From Ignavibacteriota bacterium (GTDB lineage: Bacteria > Bacteroidota > Ignavibacteria > UBA10030 > UBA6906): DNA of 43,668 bases. The notes below the pieces were generated by a model. That model saw only the letters and a list, made by a program, of their open reading frames with translations, did no database searches and was not told the origin of the DNA. Below, one piece after another: positions 3,815 to 42,338 of the stretch. The translations under genes were made by a program, and so were the position numbers. The first letter of the stretch is position 1; each line of letters starts with the position of its first letter. The stretch lies in NCBI GenBank assembly GCA_003162215.1, contig PMMO01000109.1, forward strand, positions 1 through 43,668, in the 5' to 3' direction.

Positions 3815-4551
3815 CAGTTCTCCCTTTCCGCATCCAACAGAACAGTAACACTCCGTGGCCCGTCAATCCGTGCGCGGACGCGGTCACGGCGGCTTGCCAA
3901 CTCCACCGTCACATACTCTCCGCGATCCCCGTCATCCCGGGCGGTTCCCTCCAACGTCATCGATACTCCGCGCGATCGGACTCTCACCTGCACCCGGTCT
4001 CCCTGCTGTACAAGCGGAGTGTGCTCAAACAGATCCTCATACAGCATGGCCCCGCGGGGGATAATTCGCCGTGACCGCAATCCTTCGAGGGAATTGTGAT
4101 CGCAAAGAACCCGCCGCCGGATGTCGGTGGTCTCCCTATGCAACGTCTGGACATCTTCAGACCCCGGCGCTGCATGGCGTCCGATTGCACGTCCGGCAAC
4201 CAGAACATTTGCATAGGTCCTTATCAGCATAGATACCAGGCACCGGTGGACAATCCGTCCATCCGACTCGATCTCCACACGCACCGCAAGCGCACCTTTC
4301 CACTGCGTCCGTGCATCAGCGGCCACGTGCAAACGATAGTTCATGCCGGGGACTTCAACGTTCTCCGGCACCGCACGGAAGGTGATTTCCGCCTGCTCAT
4401 TTTCAGCAGCGCGTTGGTCGGCCAGAAATGCCCGCACGGCCTCTTGCAGTTCTGCAGCTGGCACCCTCGTTCCTCCCCGCACACCGGAAGCAACTACCAG
4501 GAGAACAAACACGAGGCTCCACAACAGCATGCTATGTGGACGGCCGGCCAT
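3814..4551 (-). CDS. flgA: FlgA, P-ring assembly chaperone (SAF domain)
   Basis: The 245-aa product has an N-terminal hydrophobic export signal (MLLWSLVFVLLVVASGVRG) and a C-terminal SAF/FlgA region from about residue 115 onward: GRAIGRHAAPGSED, then RRIIPRGAMLYEDLFEHTPLV, then a repeat of short beta strands. FlgA is the periplasmic chaperone for polymerisation of FlgI. The position next to flgH and flgI fits. ATG 4551 follows the flgG stop... by transcription order flgG is upstream and the two are separated by 4 nt. An internal ATG at 4530 directly before the hydrophobic core is an alternative start. Confidence 0.92.
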   Translation of the reverse strand: MAGRPHSMLLWSLVFVLLVVASGVRGGTRVPAAELQEAVRAFLADQRAAENEQAEITFRAVPENVEVPGMNYRLHVAADARTQWKGALAVRVEIESDGRIVHRCLVSMLIRTYANVLVAGRAIGRHAAPGSEDVQTLHRETTDIRRRVLCDHNSLEGLRSRRIIPRGAMLYEDLFEHTPLVQQGDRVQVRVRSRGVSMTLEGTARDDGDRGEYVTVELASRRDRVRARIDGPRSVTVLLDAEREN

Positions 4552-4555
4552 GAGG

Positions 4556-5344
4556 CTACCGTTTCACGTTAGTGGCTACGGTGAGCATGTCTTCAACTGT
4601 CTTGATGGTCTTGGCGCTGATCTCGTACGCACGTTGGGCCGTGATCATCCCTACCATTTCTTCCACAACATCTACGTTTGAGGACTCCAGATATCCCTGC
4701 ATGACCTCGCCGAACCCTTCGTTCGTCGCCGATCCCGTAATGGGTGCTCCGGAGGCGCCGGTCTCCACGTAGAGGTCTCCGCCAATCGCGCGCAACCCCG
4801 CAGGGTTGATGAACTTCGCGAGTTCAAATTGGCCGAGCTTCGTCGTCTCAGCATCGCCGGCGTTTTTTGCTTCAATCGTGCCGTCACGGCTTACGGTGAT
4901 TTCGGTCGTATCGGAAGAAAATGTCACCGCCGGCTCGACAAAGTATCCTTGCGATGTCACAAGAGTTCCATCCCCGGACATCTTGAATGATCCATCACGT
5001 GTGTAGGCAAGCGTTCCATCAGGGCGTCGTATCTGAAAAAAACCTTCTCCCTGCAATGCAATATCCAGCTTATTCTGGGTTGGCTGGATGTCCCCCTGCG
5101 CGAATGACCGTGCGGTCGCTACGGGAACAGAACCATTTCCCACTTGCAGCTCCGATGCCTGTTGCAGATTCGGATTCTCAGAAACGCCGGTGGCCTTCAG
5201 GGTCTGATACATCAGGTCCTGGAATTCCGGCCGGCTCTTCTTGAATCCCGTGGTATTGACGTTCGCCAGGTTGTGAGCGATGGTGTCAATGTTGAGTTGT
5301 TGGGCAAACATGCCTGTTGCCGCTGTACGCAGTGCGCGATTCAT
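4556..5344 (-). CDS. flgG: FlgG, distal rod protein
   Basis: The 262-aa product matches the distal rod protein. The N-terminus MNRALRTAATGMFAQQLNID leads into the axial motif NLANVNTTGFKKSRPEFQDLMYQ, which is diagnostic of FlgG. The middle contains GEGFFQIRRPDGTLAYTRDG. The C-terminus QGYLESSNVDVVEEMVGMIT and AQRAYEISAKTIKTVEDML forms the second axial helix. It is exported by the flagellar type III system without a cleaved signal. ATG 5344 has an AGAGAGGAAG ribosome site, and the gene lies 24 nt after flgF. Confidence 0.98.
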   Translation of the reverse strand: MNRALRTAATGMFAQQLNIDTIAHNLANVNTTGFKKSRPEFQDLMYQTLKATGVSENPNLQQASELQVGNGSVPVATARSFAQGDIQPTQNKLDIALQGEGFFQIRRPDGTLAYTRDGSFKMSGDGTLVTSQGYFVEPAVTFSSDTTEITVSRDGTIEAKNAGDAETTKLGQFELAKFINPAGLRAIGGDLYVETGASGAPITGSATNEGFGEVMQGYLESSNVDVVEEMVGMITAQRAYEISAKTIKTVEDMLTVATNVKR

Positions 5345-6112: not shown

Positions 6113-7200
6113 GATCCCAGTTCCTCCTTCTTCTCCGCCGGACGCATGGAACGCAACTTCACCGCAAGGTCCATTTCTCCGCGTCCCACGCCAAGCTTTC
6201 GCGCGAAATGGAGGCGCTGATTTGGTGTTGTAGCGCGGGTGAGCGTTTCTTCCATCCGCGTAGGCGACAATTGCGGCGTGGCGCGGTCATGCAACCGTCG
6301 GGCGAGAGTGATTTCTTCGCTGCCGCGTCGGAACGAGCGGGCGAGCTGCAGTGATGTCTCGTGGGCGACGTCCGATTCATCGTCCTCATAAGGTTCATCC
6401 ACCAGCAATTCGTGGCTCGCAGTCCCACGTGCCGGTGCTGTCGGGTGCGGAACAGGAACTTCTGTCCGGACTGATCGCGGCGTCATCACAGCGTGCTTGG
6501 CCGGTTTCTTCCCGAAGGCAAGGGCCAGCGCCGCACCGCTCCCGGTCAGGACGATGACCACGATGGCAGAGAGCGCAAGAGCGACTGCAGGCGCCAGGCT
6601 GGCATGAGCGGGCTGTTGCATGCTCGTGCGCGATGGCGGTGGTGACGATTCAGCGTGCAGTTGTTCTCGTGCAACGCCCGGGATGTCGATGACCGCATTG
6701 CTGGCCGGCGCATATGATTGCACTGCGATCGCTTTGGGTGGCTCCGATTTCACAGGGGTCACGCGCCGCGTGGATGCAATGGATGGTCGTGGCAGGGCTG
6801 ACTGCCCACCGGTCGGCAGAACATCAATATAAAGGGCATTTCCCGATGCCGGAAGTACGCAACGGTAGGTTGTCGGTGTCCGAACCATGAGTGACACCAT
6901 GGTGCTGTCACCGGGTAGCGGCGACACAGAGATGGCTGTGACAAGACCCGAGTTCAACAGTTGACGCCGGGCTTTCATGGGAATCGCTACACCGGTGTGA
7001 GAGAATCCCAGCCGGACAACTCCGTCTGATCCAAGCGTGGAGTATCGCACCTCGCCGCGGAACAGAAGTGTCACGCGACTATAGCCCGCCTGCGCGCTAT
7101 ACCGCACATCTGTCAGAGTCGCATCCTCCCCCGCCGTAGCGCGCGGGGAATTCCACAGGAGGCCTGTAAGCATGCCCATCACTATCCAGTAGCGTATCAT
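6109..7200 (-). CDS. Membrane protein with periplasmic AMIN-like domain and duplicated cytoplasmic HTH-like motif; function unknown
   Basis: I do not recognise a named gene. The 363-aa product has a signal/anchor at residues 1-23, then a beta-rich segment (about 28-130: TLTDVRYSAQAGYSRVTLLF ... ALYIDVLPT) resembling the AMIN domain, which localises periplasmic proteins to cell-envelope structures and peptidoglycan. A Pro/Ser-rich linker and one transmembrane helix (about 203-229) follow. The basic and acidic tail holds two copies of a 20-residue motif, at 284-303 and 330-349, of the form L..AR...G..E..LA..L. Eight of the 20 positions are identical between copies, and the motif recalls short HTH-like tails in flagellar-cluster proteins. 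ATG 7200 is preferred: it has GGAGGG 7-8 nt upstream and forms ATGA with the kinase stop. An upstream GTG at 7215 is rejected. A link between envelope and flagellar rod or kinase signalling is inference. Confidence 0.75.
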   Translation of the reverse strand: MIRYWIVMGMLTGLLWNSPRATAGEDATLTDVRYSAQAGYSRVTLLFRGEVRYSTLGSDGVVRLGFSHTGVAIPMKARRQLLNSGLVTAISVSPLPGDSTMVSLMVRTPTTYRCVLPASGNALYIDVLPTGGQSALPRPSIASTRRVTPVKSEPPKAIAVQSYAPASNAVIDIPGVAREQLHAESSPPPSRTSMQQPAHASLAPAVALALSAIVVIVLTGSGAALALAFGKKPAKHAVMTPRSVRTEVPVPHPTAPARGTASHELLVDEPYEDDESDVAHETSLQLARSFRRGSEEITLARRLHDRATPQLSPTRMEETLTRATTPNQRLHFARKLGVGRGEMDLAVKLRSMRPAEKKEELGS

Positions 7201-8561
7201 CGTTGGACCCTCCACACCGGAAGAAAGATCGTGAATGCCGTTCCTTTGTCAATTTCGCTCTCCACCCGCAGTTCTCCTTTGTGTTGGGCGATGATTTTGC
7301 TGCAAATTGCAAGACCGAGCCCCGTTCCCTTTTCTCCCTTTGTGCTGAAGAACGGTTTGAAGATCTTCTCCTGAAGCTCCTTGGGGATGCCGCATCCCGT
7401 ATCGCCAATCCGGATGGAGACGTGAAACCCCGCCAATGACGTCGCGATGGAAATTGTCCCGCCTTTGGGCATTGCATCCCGTGCATTAATCAAGAGGTTC
7501 AGAAACACCTGTTGCAGGTAGTTGGCATTCCCTCCCACCGCCGGGAGTTCTTTATCAAGACGAAGGTCCATCGTGATGCCATTCCCTTCGAACTCGTGTT
7601 GTACCATCATCACAATATCTTCTAGGGCCTTGTTAACATTGATGGGCTCGGTTGCCACTTCCTCGGAGACGTTGCGCGAGAAGTTCATCAGGCGCAGGGT
7701 GATATCTGACAGGCGCTTCAACTGTTTGCTGAACATGTCGATCCAGTTTGGCAGCGGGCGGCCGGCCTGCACCAGCTCGAGATGGAGCATCAGCACCTGG
7801 AGCGGATTCTTGATTTCGTGGGCGATCCCTGCGGCGAGTTCACCGATGGCCGCCAATTTTGCCGCCTGCACCATTTGTGCCTGCGATGCCTTCAACTCCT
7901 CGTTGGCTTTCAGCAGTTGCTGATACGTGCGCCAGTTCTCGACACCGACTGCGGCCTGGTTCGCCAGCACGGACAAGAGCTGTATGTCCTGATTGGAGAA
8001 TTCCTGCTGGGCCTTTTCAGTGTGGATGACGAACACCCCGATCCCCTGACTGCGCAAAATGAGCGGCACAATCACGAAGTTCCGCGCGCTCGACTTCGAC
8101 AACATGTGCTCAAGGTCCGGAATGATCACGGTTTTCTTTTCGGAGATCACCCAATCCACGATACCCGCTTCGAGCTGATGTTGCGCTTCCTCGCCCAAAC
8201 GGGGTGAACTTTTGGAAGACAGCGGAAGGAGCTTGCCGGAGGTGGACTGGAACAAAAAGATGTTGCAGTCCAGCACAGGCACGACCTGGCTGGCGAGCTC
8301 GATCAACGCGCTCACAATCAACTCGGGTTCAGTGGCCGTGCTGATGATATTCGACAACCGTTGCGTCGCCACCAACTCGTCGATGGAGCTCCTGATGGCA
8401 AGATTGTTCTGCGTAGACTGCACGTTATCCTGGCGAAGGATCTCGATCGTCTTTTCGAGGGCCTTGATGTAATTCTCACGGCTCTCAATGAACTGCTCGA
8501 ACTGAGGCAATCCTTCTTCCAGCAACTGGTAACGGTTCTTGCGTTTTGCAGCGTGTTCCAT
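7197..8561 (-). CDS. GAF-domain sensor histidine kinase
   Basis: The 454-aa soluble kinase (from ATG 8561) has an N-terminal coiled coil (about 10-60), a GAF domain (about 70-215), a HisKA domain with phosphorylation site His248 in AGIAHEIKNP, and a HATPase_c domain with N box NLLINARDAM, G1 box DTGCGIP, F region FKPFFSTK and G2 box GTGLGLAI. No transmembrane segment is present, so it senses a cytoplasmic ligand or partner. No response-regulator domain is fused and none is adjacent. It is coupled downstream to the AMIN-like gene and follows an HDOD gene by 13 nt. Start 8561 has AAGAGG upstream; an ATG at 8585 and a TTG at 8591 would overlap the HDOD gene and lack a ribosome site. Confidence 0.92.
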   Translation of the reverse strand: MEHAAKRKNRYQLLEEGLPQFEQFIESRENYIKALEKTIEILRQDNVQSTQNNLAIRSSIDELVATQRLSNIISTATEPELIVSALIELASQVVPVLDCNIFLFQSTSGKLLPLSSKSSPRLGEEAQHQLEAGIVDWVISEKKTVIIPDLEHMLSKSSARNFVIVPLILRSQGIGVFVIHTEKAQQEFSNQDIQLLSVLANQAAVGVENWRTYQQLLKANEELKASQAQMVQAAKLAAIGELAAGIAHEIKNPLQVLMLHLELVQAGRPLPNWIDMFSKQLKRLSDITLRLMNFSRNVSEEVATEPINVNKALEDIVMMVQHEFEGNGITMDLRLDKELPAVGGNANYLQQVFLNLLINARDAMPKGGTISIATSLAGFHVSIRIGDTGCGIPKELQEKIFKPFFSTKGEKGTGLGLAICSKIIAQHKGELRVESEIDKGTAFTIFLPVWRVQR

Positions 8562-8574
8562 GAGCTCTCGCCTC

Positions 8575-9444
8575 TTACCGGGCATTCTCAAATTGGGTGA
8601 CCTGCTCCAGATCGGCCTTGATCAGATCACGATACGACTGCATGTACTGGTCGAGCACTTGAGGATCAGTGAGCTGCAAATGGTCGAGCGACTGGGAATC
8701 GAAATCGAGCCCTTTGTCGAAGTCCACCGCCTGTGCACTCATCCGTATAGCAAAAACGTCCGCACAATGGATCAGGGCGACCAAATCCTTGTTCTTGTCG
8801 GCGCGTGACGGACTGTGGTGAAAACGGATGGCCTCCACCAGATGATCCGGGAGATTCCACCGTTCCGCCAGCCATCCCCCAACCTCGGCGTGCGTCACGC
8901 CCAACACGCTTTCTTCCGCTTCGATGGCATTCAGGTCCGTTTCCTGCAGGATTTCCACAATGCGTTTGTATTCATTCCGGAAATACCGGTGCAATACCGA
9001 GATCCCCATGTCATGCAACAATCCACCAACGAAGACTTCACCGCTCACACGGTACCCCAGGTCCCGCGCGAGCCGGCGCGCAATGACCCCGCTGGTAATG
9101 GAGTGATCCCAGAAGCCTTTGGCATCAAAAACAGCATCGGATTTCTTCTGTAGTGAACTGACCAGTGATATACTGATCACGATTTCCTTTAATGCGTCGT
9201 ACCCGAGAACAATGATGGCAAAGTCAATGGTTGATATCCTGCGCGGGAAACCGTAGAATGGCGAATTGGCAATCTTCAGTACCTTCGCTGTTAGAGCCTG
9301 ATCGGTGGAAATCAGTTTCCCGAGCCTTGACGCACTTGTCTTGGGATTGTCCACCAGTTCCACCACTTCCATGGCGATCGTGGGAAGTGCAGGCAACTGG
9401 ATGATCGTCTGCACTTTCTCCTTGATGTAGTCCGGTGACATCAT
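8575..9444 (-). CDS. HDOD-domain signalling protein
   Basis: The 289-aa product is a single HDOD domain, a relative of HD phosphohydrolases that usually acts as a signalling or scaffold module. Residues 17-22 (LPALPT) begin the domain. ISTDQALTAKVLKIANSPFY (46-65) is the characteristic HDOD segment, and GLLHDMG (141-147) keeps the His-Asp pair. FHHSP occurs further on. Whether it hydrolyses anything cannot be told from sequence. The start ATG 9444 overlaps the stop of the sigma region-4 gene (ATGA), and the next gene encodes a GAF histidine kinase, a pairing repeated at the other end of the window. Confidence 0.92.
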   Translation of the reverse strand: MMSPDYIKEKVQTIIQLPALPTIAMEVVELVDNPKTSASRLGKLISTDQALTAKVLKIANSPFYGFPRRISTIDFAIIVLGYDALKEIVISISLVSSLQKKSDAVFDAKGFWDHSITSGVIARRLARDLGYRVSGEVFVGGLLHDMGISVLHRYFRNEYKRIVEILQETDLNAIEAEESVLGVTHAEVGGWLAERWNLPDHLVEAIRFHHSPSRADKNKDLVALIHCADVFAIRMSAQAVDFDKGLDFDSQSLDHLQLTDPQVLDQYMQSYRDLIKADLEQVTQFENAR

Positions 9445-9743
9445 GTCAGATCGTCTCGTCGTTTCTCATTGTCAGCAATGCGGGATGCCAGATGTGACAG
9501 CGCCCGGGTGTGGAGCTGTTCGGCTTCATCAGCCGCCATTCCCAGCACGACGGCCATTTCTTCGCACGCTAAACCCTCTTCGTAGCACAGCGCAAGTGCG
9601 AGACGTTCGCGTGCCGGGAGTTCTGCGATGGCATTCGCCAACCACGTCCGGGCGGATGCGTCGTTCTCTGGCCCTGCCGGCAGTAACGATACCTCGCTGC
9701 TTGAGGCCAGGTGTTTCAGGGCTCGTGTCACCGTGCTGTTCAC
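9441..9743 (-). CDS. Sigma-70 region-4-only protein, FliA paralogue lacking regions 2 and 3
   Basis: The 100-aa product aligns without gaps to the C-terminal region 4 of the FliA encoded just upstream: NAIAELPARERLALALCYEE against EAIERLSERDRTVIALYYYE, continuing through the helix-turn-helix. I count about 19 identities over 53 positions. No region 2 (core and -10 binding) is present, and the recognition helix (AADEAEQLHTRALSHL against TEGRVSQIHSEVLRQL) has lost basic and polar residues and gained acidic ones. It is therefore unlikely to be a working sigma factor. It may bind RNA polymerase beta flap or FliA, or be a domain relic under coupling. The start is a GTG with GAGAGG upstream, 70 nt after fliA. 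Confidence 0.8.
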   Translation of the reverse strand: MNSTVTRALKHLASSSEVSLLPAGPENDASARTWLANAIAELPARERLALALCYEEGLACEEMAVVLGMAADEAEQLHTRALSHLASRIADNEKRRDDLT

Positions 9744-9813
9744 ATTTCCTCTCCCATCTAGTTTAGAACTCCCTGTTGTTCACATCCCTCTATCCCAAGC
9801 ATGGCACTTTCCG

Positions 9814-10569
9814 TCAGACCTCCATGGCAAGGAGACGGCTGCGAAGTTGCCGCAGCACTTCGGAGTGGATTTGCGAAACACGACCTTCCGTCAGATTCAA
9901 AATTTTGGCGATTTCCGTGAACTTCAACTCTTCGTAATAATACAGTGCAATCACCGTGCGATCCCTCTCGGAGAGCCGCTCAATCGCCTCCGTCAGGGTG
10001 GCACGTGTCTCTTCATCTCCAAGTCGCTCCAGCGGACTCGGAGCCTCAGAGGCTGCTTGATCCAACGGTTCGGGGCTCTGGCTCTCTGTCACAATTTCCA
10101 CTTCGCGGACGACTGTCGACCCGCTCCCCAGCATTTTCCGGAATTCCTCAATCGACATGAAAAGTTTGCTGGCGATCTCCTCATCGAGAGGTTCGCGGCC
10201 GTGCTCCTGCATCACTTCGTGCGCAGCCTTGCCGACTTTGCGTGTGGTCTCGCGCACTGAACGTGGCACCCAGTCCAGCTTCCGCATCTCATCGAGAATC
10301 GCTCCGCGAATTCGTGGAACGGCGTATGTTTCGAACTTGACGCCCTGGGACGGCGAAAACCGATCAATAGCCGTCAGCAACCCCAGGACACCAAAATGCA
10401 CGACGTCGTTGTATTCCAGACCGTGCCCCCTGCCCTGTTGCTGCAAACCGAATTTGCTCACAACATACCGCACCAGGTCCATGTACTGGAGAACCAGCTC
10501 GCGCTTCAGTCCCGCCTCATGCGTCTGTAGGAATTGCCCCCACAGATCCTGTGTCGCCATCTCCGTCAT
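9814..10569 (-). CDS. fliA: FliA, sigma-28 factor for late flagellar genes
   Basis: The 251-aa product is a FliA/WhiG-family sigma factor. Region 2 is seen in LVRYVVSKFG, GLLTAIDRFSPSQGVKFETY and AVPRIRGAILDEMRKLDWVP, with region 3 in RSVRETTRKVGKAAHEVMQE. Region 4 ends the protein with ALYYYEELKFTEIAKILNLT and EGRVSQIHSEVLRQL. It directs transcription of filament, motor and chemotaxis genes. ATG 10569 has only a weak ribosome site (GGGCGA), and ATG 10560 is an alternative. Its usual anti-sigma factor FlgM is not found anywhere in this window. Confidence 0.97.
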   Translation of the reverse strand: MTEMATQDLWGQFLQTHEAGLKRELVLQYMDLVRYVVSKFGLQQQGRGHGLEYNDVVHFGVLGLLTAIDRFSPSQGVKFETYAVPRIRGAILDEMRKLDWVPRSVRETTRKVGKAAHEVMQEHGREPLDEEIASKLFMSIEEFRKMLGSGSTVVREVEIVTESQSPEPLDQAASEAPSPLERLGDEETRATLTEAIERLSERDRTVIALYYYEELKFTEIAKILNLTEGRVSQIHSEVLRQLRSRLLAMEV

Positions 10570-10589: not shown

Positions 10590-10856
10590 TCACGATGGTG
10601 AACCTGTCTGTTGTGAGTGCGGTTCAGTCACCGGTGAAGCCTGGCGATGTTCCGCACGCGGTTTCTCGGGCGCGCTCTTCTTTGTTTTCTTCATCGACGC
10701 AATGATCACGAAAATCACCGCCTGCACGAGTACAATGGCGATGAAGACGATGAAGGAGCGCAGCACCATATCCAAAAGAGGCATTCCTTGCGTGCCGAAA
10801 TACAGAGCTGACACGAAGAATCCCAGCAGACCTACTTGAAACATGACCTTTGTCAT
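10590..10856 (-). CDS. Small membrane protein of unknown function between flhG and fliA
   Basis: I do not recognise this 88-aa protein. It has two hydrophobic segments, about residues 5-22 and 32-53, followed by a Lys-rich stretch MKKTKKSAPEKPR and a hydrophilic tail, so it is probably a two-pass inner-membrane protein with a cytoplasmic C-terminus. Its start overlaps the flhG stop by 4 nt (ATGA), and fliA begins 20 nt after its stop. That tight coupling suggests a role connected with flagellar number control or FliA, but no function can be assigned. Confidence 0.75.
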   Translation of the reverse strand: MTKVMFQVGLLGFFVSALYFGTQGMPLLDMVLRSFIVFIAIVLVQAVIFVIIASMKKTKKSAPEKPRAEHRQASPVTEPHSQQTGSPS

Positions 10857-40149: not shown

Positions 40150-42338
40150 GCTTTGCTCTCAGAGTAACTACATTCGTTATGCAATTCTTCCTTTACGTAT
40201 TCGAATTCCTTTTCCAGCGCGTGCAACGGCACGTCGACACTTGTGAGATTTCCCTCCTGACTTGCAGCCTGAAGAGTCTGGCTCATCGCCATCATCTTCA
40301 TGACGCCGATATTCCCGCAAATGCCCTTTAAAGAGTGCGCTGCAGTGAAGAACGCACGTGCATTGTTCGTTTCCAGGGCATGCCACATGGTGATGATGCG
40401 TACCGGGGCGTCATCAAGAAACGATCGAATCAACCTCTCGAACAGGGCAGGATCCTGCCGCTTGCTCAGGTCCTGAAGGTACCTCAACCGCTCGTGGTCA
40501 ATGCGCAGTGCAGGCTTCTCTTCCGCAGGGGTCGTGTGCTGGCGATCTGATGCCGTTGACGCGTCCATGTGCACCCACGCTGCAAGCTTGTTCGCAAGGT
40601 CTTCGAGCATCACCGGCTTGCTGAGAAAGTCGTCCATTCCGGCGTCAAGGCCGCGCTCTTTTTCCCCCTGCAGAGCGTTCGCCGTCATGGCAATGATGAT
40701 CCGGTGCTTTTTTTCCCCCTCCGACCGCCGGATCATCCGCGTTGCCTCAAACCCATCCAGCACCGGCATATGACAATCCATGAAAACGACATCGAACTCC
40801 TTCTCTACAAGTGCCTCCACAGCCTCCTGCCCGTTGGTCACAATCTGCGATTCGCATTCGAGCTTGCCAAGCATGATCGATGCGACGAGACGGTTGGCTT
40901 CATTGTCTTCGGCGACGAGCACGCGTGTGCCGCGCATTGAACGATTCTTCCGTGGCGCAGCGTGTGTTTCCGTTGCCTGCTCAACGGCGCTCTGGACAAT
41001 ATCGAACGTTGCGGAAAACCAGAAGGTGCTGCCCTTCCCGACTTCGCTCTCCACGGCAATGATCCCCTGCATCATTTCTACGAGTTGCTTGGAGATCGCC
41101 AACCCGAGTCCCGTTCCTCCGTATTTCCGGGTCGCGGACCCATCCACCTGGGAGAATGATTGGAACAGTGCCTTCAATCCGGCAGGAGGAATGCCAATGC
41201 CGGTGTCGGTGACATCGCACCGGATAGAGACCTGGCGATCGGTGCGGTGCGGAACGGTCACAGTCACCGTAACGCCGCCATGCTCAGTGAACTTGATGGC
41301 ATTCCCGACGAGATTGGTAAGGATCTGGGAAAGACGGATGGCATCGCCCATCACCGCCGCCGGAATGCCGGGATCATAGTTGATGTTCAGGCGGATGCCT
41401 TTTTGCTCGGCACGACCCGCAAACAAGTGCACGGCCTGTTCCACCGTCGCACGGATCCCGAAGGGTTGCTGGTCAAGAGTAAGCTTTCCCGCTTCAATCT
41501 TGGAAAAGTCGAGAATGTCGTTGATCACCGTCAGTAATGCCGTGCTGCTCCCCTGGATGATCTGCAGATATTTCCGCTGGTCCGGCTCAAGCCGCGTATC
41601 CCGGAGAAGATCCACAAGTCCCATGATGCCATTCAACGGAGTGCGGATTTCATGGCTCATGTTTGCCAGAAATTGCCGCTTGGCGATGTTGGCAACCTGG
41701 GCCTCTTCCAGGGCGCCCTGCAATTCACGGGTACGTTCCTTGATCGCTTCTTCCAGCGTGCGGTTGTAGTCGATCATTTTTTGATACAGAGCAGCATTTT
41801 CCAGTGCATTCGCTGTCTGGAACAGAAGGATCGACAAAAGGTTCAGCGACACCTCGGTAATCAGCTGTTCTTCGCCCGGCAGAACACCGACGAACATGCC
41901 GATGACGCGCGAACGCGTAGTCAGCGCATGGAGCACGATGTTTGTCGCAGAAGTCTTCGCGGGAACCACAAGCGCGCGATTCTGATTGAGTGCCCATGCA
42001 AAGGTCCCATCGTCGATCTGCAAATCGATCTCGCGTTGCAGTTGAGCCATGTGATCGGCGGGGGTGCAATCGGTAATGACCAATTCGCCACCGTCGTGGG
42101 GCTCGGTCATAAATGCTGTCACCTCAAGCGACAGAATGCGACTGACGTTTGACCTGGTCGCTGCCATGATTGTGGAGGCATCCTGGTCGGGATTGATGCT
42201 TGTCTGGAAATCGCCCAGCGATGCGACAAAGTCAAGCGCATCAAGGACACGCCTGTTGACTCCTTCCAGGTGGCGTACACGTCCTTCCGCCTGACGGAGT
42301 TGCTTTATGATGTCACTGAGTTCTTCCATCTTATGCAT
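40146..42338 (-). CDS. Hybrid sensor histidine kinase (GAF-like, HisKA, HATPase, REC, HPt)
   Basis: The 730-aa soluble kinase has a GAF-like region (about 35-185), a HisKA domain with His229 ([15 protein letters not shown]), a HATPase domain (N box LVGNAIKF; G1 DTGIGIP; G2 [10 protein letters not shown]), a receiver domain with Asp521 ([13 protein letters not shown]) and an HPt domain with His668 ([13 protein letters not shown]). All phosphorelay residues are present. The final phosphate acceptor may be the adjacent response regulator. ATG 42338 overlaps the HDOD gene by 8 nt; ATG 42329 is an alternative. Confidence 0.95.

Follow-up and report, generated by a model that had tools for sequence, protein, structure and literature searches.

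The window analyzed here, a 43,668-nucleotide stretch of an Ignavibacteriota contig, carries a short open reading frame (ORF100) between fliA and an HDOD gene, whose product is nearly all sigma-70 region 4 domain. Its anatomy is very probably that of a truncated HDOD-sigma4 protein, a fusion family that occupies the same slot in related genera of the same taxonomic family and order. On the sequence comparisons presented below, we propose, with a probability of about 0.4, that ORF100 mimics region 4 of sigma28 and acts as a decoy for FlgM that would free some FliA.

As originally predicted, ORF100 exists as a stand-alone region 4 protein adjoining fliA and lacking region 2, and both the reading frame and its domain matches bear this out. 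Pfam placed Sigma70_r4_2 (PF08281, E 4e-9) and Sigma70_r4 (PF04545, E 2e-7) on the protein, both above their gathering cut-offs, and the best NCBIfam model was FliA_WhiG (TIGR02479), of which only positions 158–222 of 224 were matched. Neither Pfam nor NCBIfam matched region 2 or region 3 in ORF100; Pfam also returned no match to HDOD, to the FlgM domain (PF04316) or to a receiver domain, and the PhyR_sigma-like model scored 16.6 bits against a cut-off of 27. AlphaFold2 predicted a region 4 fold for the protein alone, a four-helix domain (residues 25–40, 44–55, 60–67, and 71–99) with pLDDT of about 91–98 across residues 31–90. In Foldseek searches the model grouped with sigma28 and sigma4 structures, including sigma4 domains inside holoenzyme, and the match to Pseudomonas aeruginosa sigma28 (9wsf) showed 45% identity over 64 columns.

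Table 1. Features of ORF100 and its neighbors in the window.
Feature	Coordinates	Strand	Basis or remark
ORF100, stand-alone sigma region 4 protein	9441..9743	-	100 aa, GTG start
Pfam PF08281 span, ORF100 sigma-70 region 4 domain (residues 34-85)	9489..9644	-	
Former -35 recognition helix (probable loss of function), ORF100 residues 71-86	9486..9533	-	column comparison
GGGAGAGG, ribosome-binding-like, purine-rich	9748..9755	-	5' of the ORF100 GTG start
ATGA overlap, ORF100 stop / HDOD gene start	9441..9444	-	sequence
fliA, full sigma28 (regions 2, 3, 4)	9814..10569	-	Pfam, NCBIfam
Canonical stand-alone HDOD gene, directly downstream of ORF100	8575..9444	-	Pfam
GAF-histidine kinase gene	7197..8591	-	Pfam; downstream neighbor of HDOD in most related loci

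ORF100 belongs to an operon-like run, flhB-flhA-flhF-flhG-orf88-fliA-ORF100-HDOD-histidine kinase-(AMIN-like)-flgF-flgG-flgA-flgH-flgI-flgJ, in which the flg, flh, and AMIN names were assigned by reading the sequences without separate family searches and AMIN-like is tentative. A scan around fliA and ORF100 found no promoter or terminator, which is weak evidence for a single operon at this point. By our reading of the sequence, 4 nt separate the ribosome-binding-like stretch from the GTG codon, and the ATGA overlap makes translational coupling of ORF100 and the HDOD gene possible. The orf88 gene (10590–10856, minus strand) encodes a probable membrane protein of 88 amino acids without a convincing family match; in most related loci it separates flhG from fliA, and it is a conserved gene of the flagellar locus. 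A second, divergent HDOD gene begins at 42331, near the end of the window and far from the flagellar operon.

Selection on the ORF100 protein is clearly purifying. Within the genus, a sister species carries a counterpart in the same place, with 93 amino acids, 60% gapless identity and the same GTG start. Comparison of the two genes gave a dN of 0.25 and a dS of about 1.7, the latter close to saturation, and thus a dN/dS of about 0.15; for the sigma4 part the values were 0.19 and 1.6. Differences at the first, second, and third codon positions numbered 18, 20, and 55. Pseudogene decay is ruled out by this third-position bias together with the low dN/dS. The sister species' copy of the canonical HDOD gene is 91% identical, and 17 bases lie between it and the ORF100 counterpart, so that the ATGA overlap is absent there. 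The fliA gene of that species (L021, 6214–6897) encodes 227 amino acids, some 25 residues fewer than FliA of the window, owing to a deletion or an assembly error.

A survey of the genes downstream of fliA in relatives, reached with the canonical HDOD protein as query, found ORF100 kept in the sister species and fusions in other genera; a pattern scan of genome contigs with ORF100 itself as query found no relatives. The fusion is a protein of about 350 amino acids, HDOD followed by a C-terminal region 4 (a full-length example is L042:3936-4982), and two copies stand in tandem in L041 and L042, two genomes from a single nearby genus. Pfam placed both domains above their cut-offs in three full-length fusions and two intermediates, and in L063, from a Kryptoniota-like family, HDOD was above the cut-off and region 4 below it. 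Of 245 sampled genomes of the class, 16 had a region 4 match inside a frame adjoining fliA and no shorter than 330 amino acids, all of them in the order of the window or in family f12 (Kryptoniota-like by its named loci), and a phylum-wide sample (n = 148) contained no fusion outside the class. The HDOD structures 3hc1, 9qzk (SadB), and 1vqr (Cj0248) matched the fusion model. The two intermediates are L062, with 229 amino acids comprising the front half of HDOD and sigma4, and L049, with 190 amino acids comprising a decayed HDOD and sigma4. The gene is absent altogether in L043, L044, L048, and more, and the canonical HDOD gene is retained in genomes that have no sigma4 protein at all. In many Melioribacter-type genomes (L073–L104), fliA is followed immediately by a tandem pair, in one case a triplet, of plain HDOD genes that lack sigma4.

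The original description made ORF100 a FliA paralogue of which only region 4 is left. The gapless alignment behind that description, with 19 of 53 residues identical, agrees with the 36% identity that we obtained against its own FliA over 59 gapless columns, but the comparison as a whole points to an HDOD-sigma4 fusion minus its HDOD half. In L041 and L042, which represent the closest genus to carry fusions, the tandem copy adjoining the HDOD gene has a sigma4 domain 48–50% identical to that of ORF100. In a sigma4 tree, a starred branch (96/92) set ORF100 apart from FliA and together with some of the fusions, although the tree comprises 59 columns, its inner support is weak and the exact place of ORF100 is weakly supported. 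ORF100 also shares the position of the fusion family, with fliA on one side and the canonical HDOD gene on the other. We reject a direct duplication of FliA followed by truncation to region 4, since the sigma4 domain is nearer to the fusions and fusions occupy this slot in relatives. Within the order, most HDODs of the fusions fall into a single clade separate from the canonical HDODs, and the canonical HDOD is therefore not the missing half of ORF100. Given the half and decayed HDODs of L062 and L049, ORF100 most likely marks the last stage of a stepwise loss of HDOD; the simplest history would be that the ancestor of this genus lost the HDOD half. The L062 protein (4307–4996) is an exception, because its sigma4 domain is placed beside FliA of the same genome (54% identity), apart from the other fusions, a possible sign that region 4 was recruited independently a second time or that gene conversion by fliA took place.

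The domain has changed where FliA would read DNA. We compared 62 distinct FliA region 4 sequences, column by column, with 21 distinct fusions and two stand-alone ORFs. R43, Q46, and H48, which we take to be R220, Q223, and H225 of the Escherichia coli recognition helix, were invariant (100%) in the 62 FliA sequences and occurred in 23%, 14%, and 33% of the fusions, respectively. Both stand-alone ORFs have E at column 43, keep H48, and have A in place of the K/R that is conserved in FliA eight residues past the histidine (column 56); ORF100 of the window also keeps Q46. The gain of acidic residues that had been noticed in the recognition helix was borne out, D-E-A-E standing in ORF100 where FliA mostly has S-R-V-S, and the mean net charge of the domain is +1.95 in FliA, −1.1 in the fusions, and −4 in the stand-alone ORFs. 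The region 4.1 core is kept (L22 100%, E26 95%, L28 85%), and the tyrosines of columns 23–25, which are 93–100% conserved in FliA, vary in the fusions and ORF100. With invariant residues changed and the core kept, promoter reading has probably been lost and the fold retained, and ORF100 itself has thus probably lost the ability to read −35 DNA.

The original prediction also noted the absence of FlgM and suggested that ORF100 might substitute for an anti-sigma factor. FlgM is indeed absent from the flgG-flgA-flgH-flgI-flgJ-flgN stretch of the window, and the Pfam FlgM model gave no match in the genome; however, the genome as a whole does contain flgM. Relatives gave weak Pfam FlgM matches, and these defined a divergent FlgM family whose genes lie next to flagellin and fliD-like genes. 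All eight aligned members of this family match Pfam FlgM, the first of them below the cut-off, and the best PDB match of the family profile was Aquifex FlgM (1rp3_B, E 0.002). Through its members, a clear flgM was found on another contig of the same genome (G000:C109:36640-36918), beside flagellin and FlbT-like genes and 72% identical to the copy of the sister species. Because FlgM is present in the genome, the idea of an anti-sigma substitute has lost its premise and is unsupported.

A FlgM match was present in 18 of the 18 genomes in which the fliA locus was seen, including that of the window. A second FlgM occurs in both two-fusion genomes and in the sister species of the window; the genome of the window and those with a single fusion have one. 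A link between FlgM copy number and fusion number comes from one small clade and is a lead only. In the family of the window, the two FlgM paralogues of L125 (176–436 and 3143–3442), L131 (293–553 and 2961–3257), and L124 (1465–1746 and about 4231–4521, minus strand) flank flagellin and, in two of the genomes, FlbT-like genes; two of the three also have a pair of HDOD-sigma4 fusions.

In its general form, the predicted role as a decoy or co-regulator is supported, with a putative partner. A region 4 domain that is maintained by selection in the fliA operon, and that has probably lost −35 reading, most likely contacts a protein that FliA region 4 also binds. As the surviving sigma4 half of a fusion, ORF100 would mimic region 4 of sigma28 and hold the protein that normally binds this region of FliA, the likeliest candidate being the anti-sigma factor FlgM. 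FlgM held in this way would leave some FliA free, an anti-anti-sigma effect whose direction we infer. In the full-length relatives the HDOD domain would gate the decoy, and with the gate gone in this genus the decoy would be constitutive. FlgM blocks the RNA polymerase-binding determinants of both sigma2 and sigma4 of FliA (PMC4598750), and sigma4 is a common target of anti-sigma factors (PMC2877774). Lacking region 2, such a decoy may have a lower affinity for FlgM than complete FliA does. L22, E26, and L28 of the core also serve the fold and so do not single out FlgM as the partner.

FlgM is slightly favored as the partner over the beta flap of RNA polymerase. Sigma4 domains as a rule dock on the beta flap, ORF100 keeps the region 4.1 core, and its fold matches sigma4 domains in holoenzyme structures, all of which would suit a domain that binds the beta flap or another polymerase partner, either as a sigma competitor or as an adaptor that brings in the HDOD protein. 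However, an isolated region 4 is usually a weak beta-flap binder, and the tyrosines of columns 23–25 are variable in the fusions and ORF100; we consider this role unlikely. Pairing of ORF100 in trans with the downstream canonical HDOD protein, as the partner of its sigma4 domain, would make the fusion a Rosetta stone that ties HDOD to sigma4, and both the ATGA overlap and the gene order in the operon point to coupled synthesis. The fusion HDODs nevertheless form a clade apart from the canonical ones, and the canonical HDOD is kept in genomes without a sigma4 protein, which makes such pairing improbable. That ORF100 still binds DNA, regulating flagellar promoters as a small transcription factor, would agree with the helix-turn-helix fold predicted by AlphaFold2 at high confidence and with the retention of Q46 and H48, but the charge reversal at R43, the loss of K/R at column 56 and a domain net charge of −4, against a FliA average of about +2, leave little room for it. 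A functionless remnant, retained solely to lead translation into the HDOD gene, would suit the stepwise loss of HDOD in relatives, the loss of the whole gene in L043 and L044 and the ATGA overlap in the genome of the window, yet it is very hard to reconcile with the dN/dS and third-position bias of ORF100 and with the 17-base gap in the sister species.

If the FlgM decoy reading of ORF100 is extended to its relatives, the HDOD-sigma4 proteins would be signal-gated sigma28 mimics that compete with FliA for FlgM (or polymerase) and control late flagellar genes, with ORF100 as a natural ungated version; we put this forward only tentatively. Control of FliA activity is best known through the binding and export of FlgM. 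If the proposal is true, an operon-encoded mimic of sigma28 region 4, joined to HDOD in most carriers, would be a second input to the FliA/FlgM checkpoint, and HDOD, described as a domain of unknown function (PMC11004494), would acquire a defined output. Since the gene occurs naturally in full-length, half-lost, and HDOD-less forms and is absent from some genomes, the idea is open to comparative testing.

Within the open-access literature, which leaves most subscription journals outside its scope, we found no description of HDOD-sigma4 proteins and nothing usable on FliA region 4 contact mutants. With region 4 of FliA/sigma28, ORF100 shares its domain, fold, and best profile match; it differs in the absence of regions 2 and 3 and in the acidic residue that replaces the FliA-invariant arginine of region 4.2. 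HDOD proteins with motility phenotypes include GsmR (Xanthomonas), Cj0248 (Campylobacter), SadB (Pseudomonas), and PSPTO_4229, which the accessible portions of the sources describe without a region 4 domain (PMC11004494, PMC11813219), whereas ORF100 has no HDOD. By analogy, such effects in several bacteria would suit a gate on a fusion switch. In Streptomyces, the c-di-GMP enzyme RmdB frees a sigma factor of the FliA/WhiG family from its anti-sigma factor (WhiG-RsiG; PMC13232838), an effect parallel to that proposed for ORF100, but it contacts the sigma factor via its GGDEF domain and without sigma mimicry. The layout of the full-length fusions resembles that of PhyR of Alphaproteobacteria, in which a sigma-like domain joined to a signaling domain has a non-promoter role (PMC4598750). 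PhyR binds the anti-sigma factor NepR and combines ECF-type sigma2- and sigma4-like parts with a receiver, whereas the fusions have a FliA-type sigma4 only, together with HDOD. Sigma mimicry is thus already known from PhyR; the HDOD-sigma4 version would be new if the mechanism holds, and would represent PhyR-like logic, separately evolved, in the flagellar cascade.
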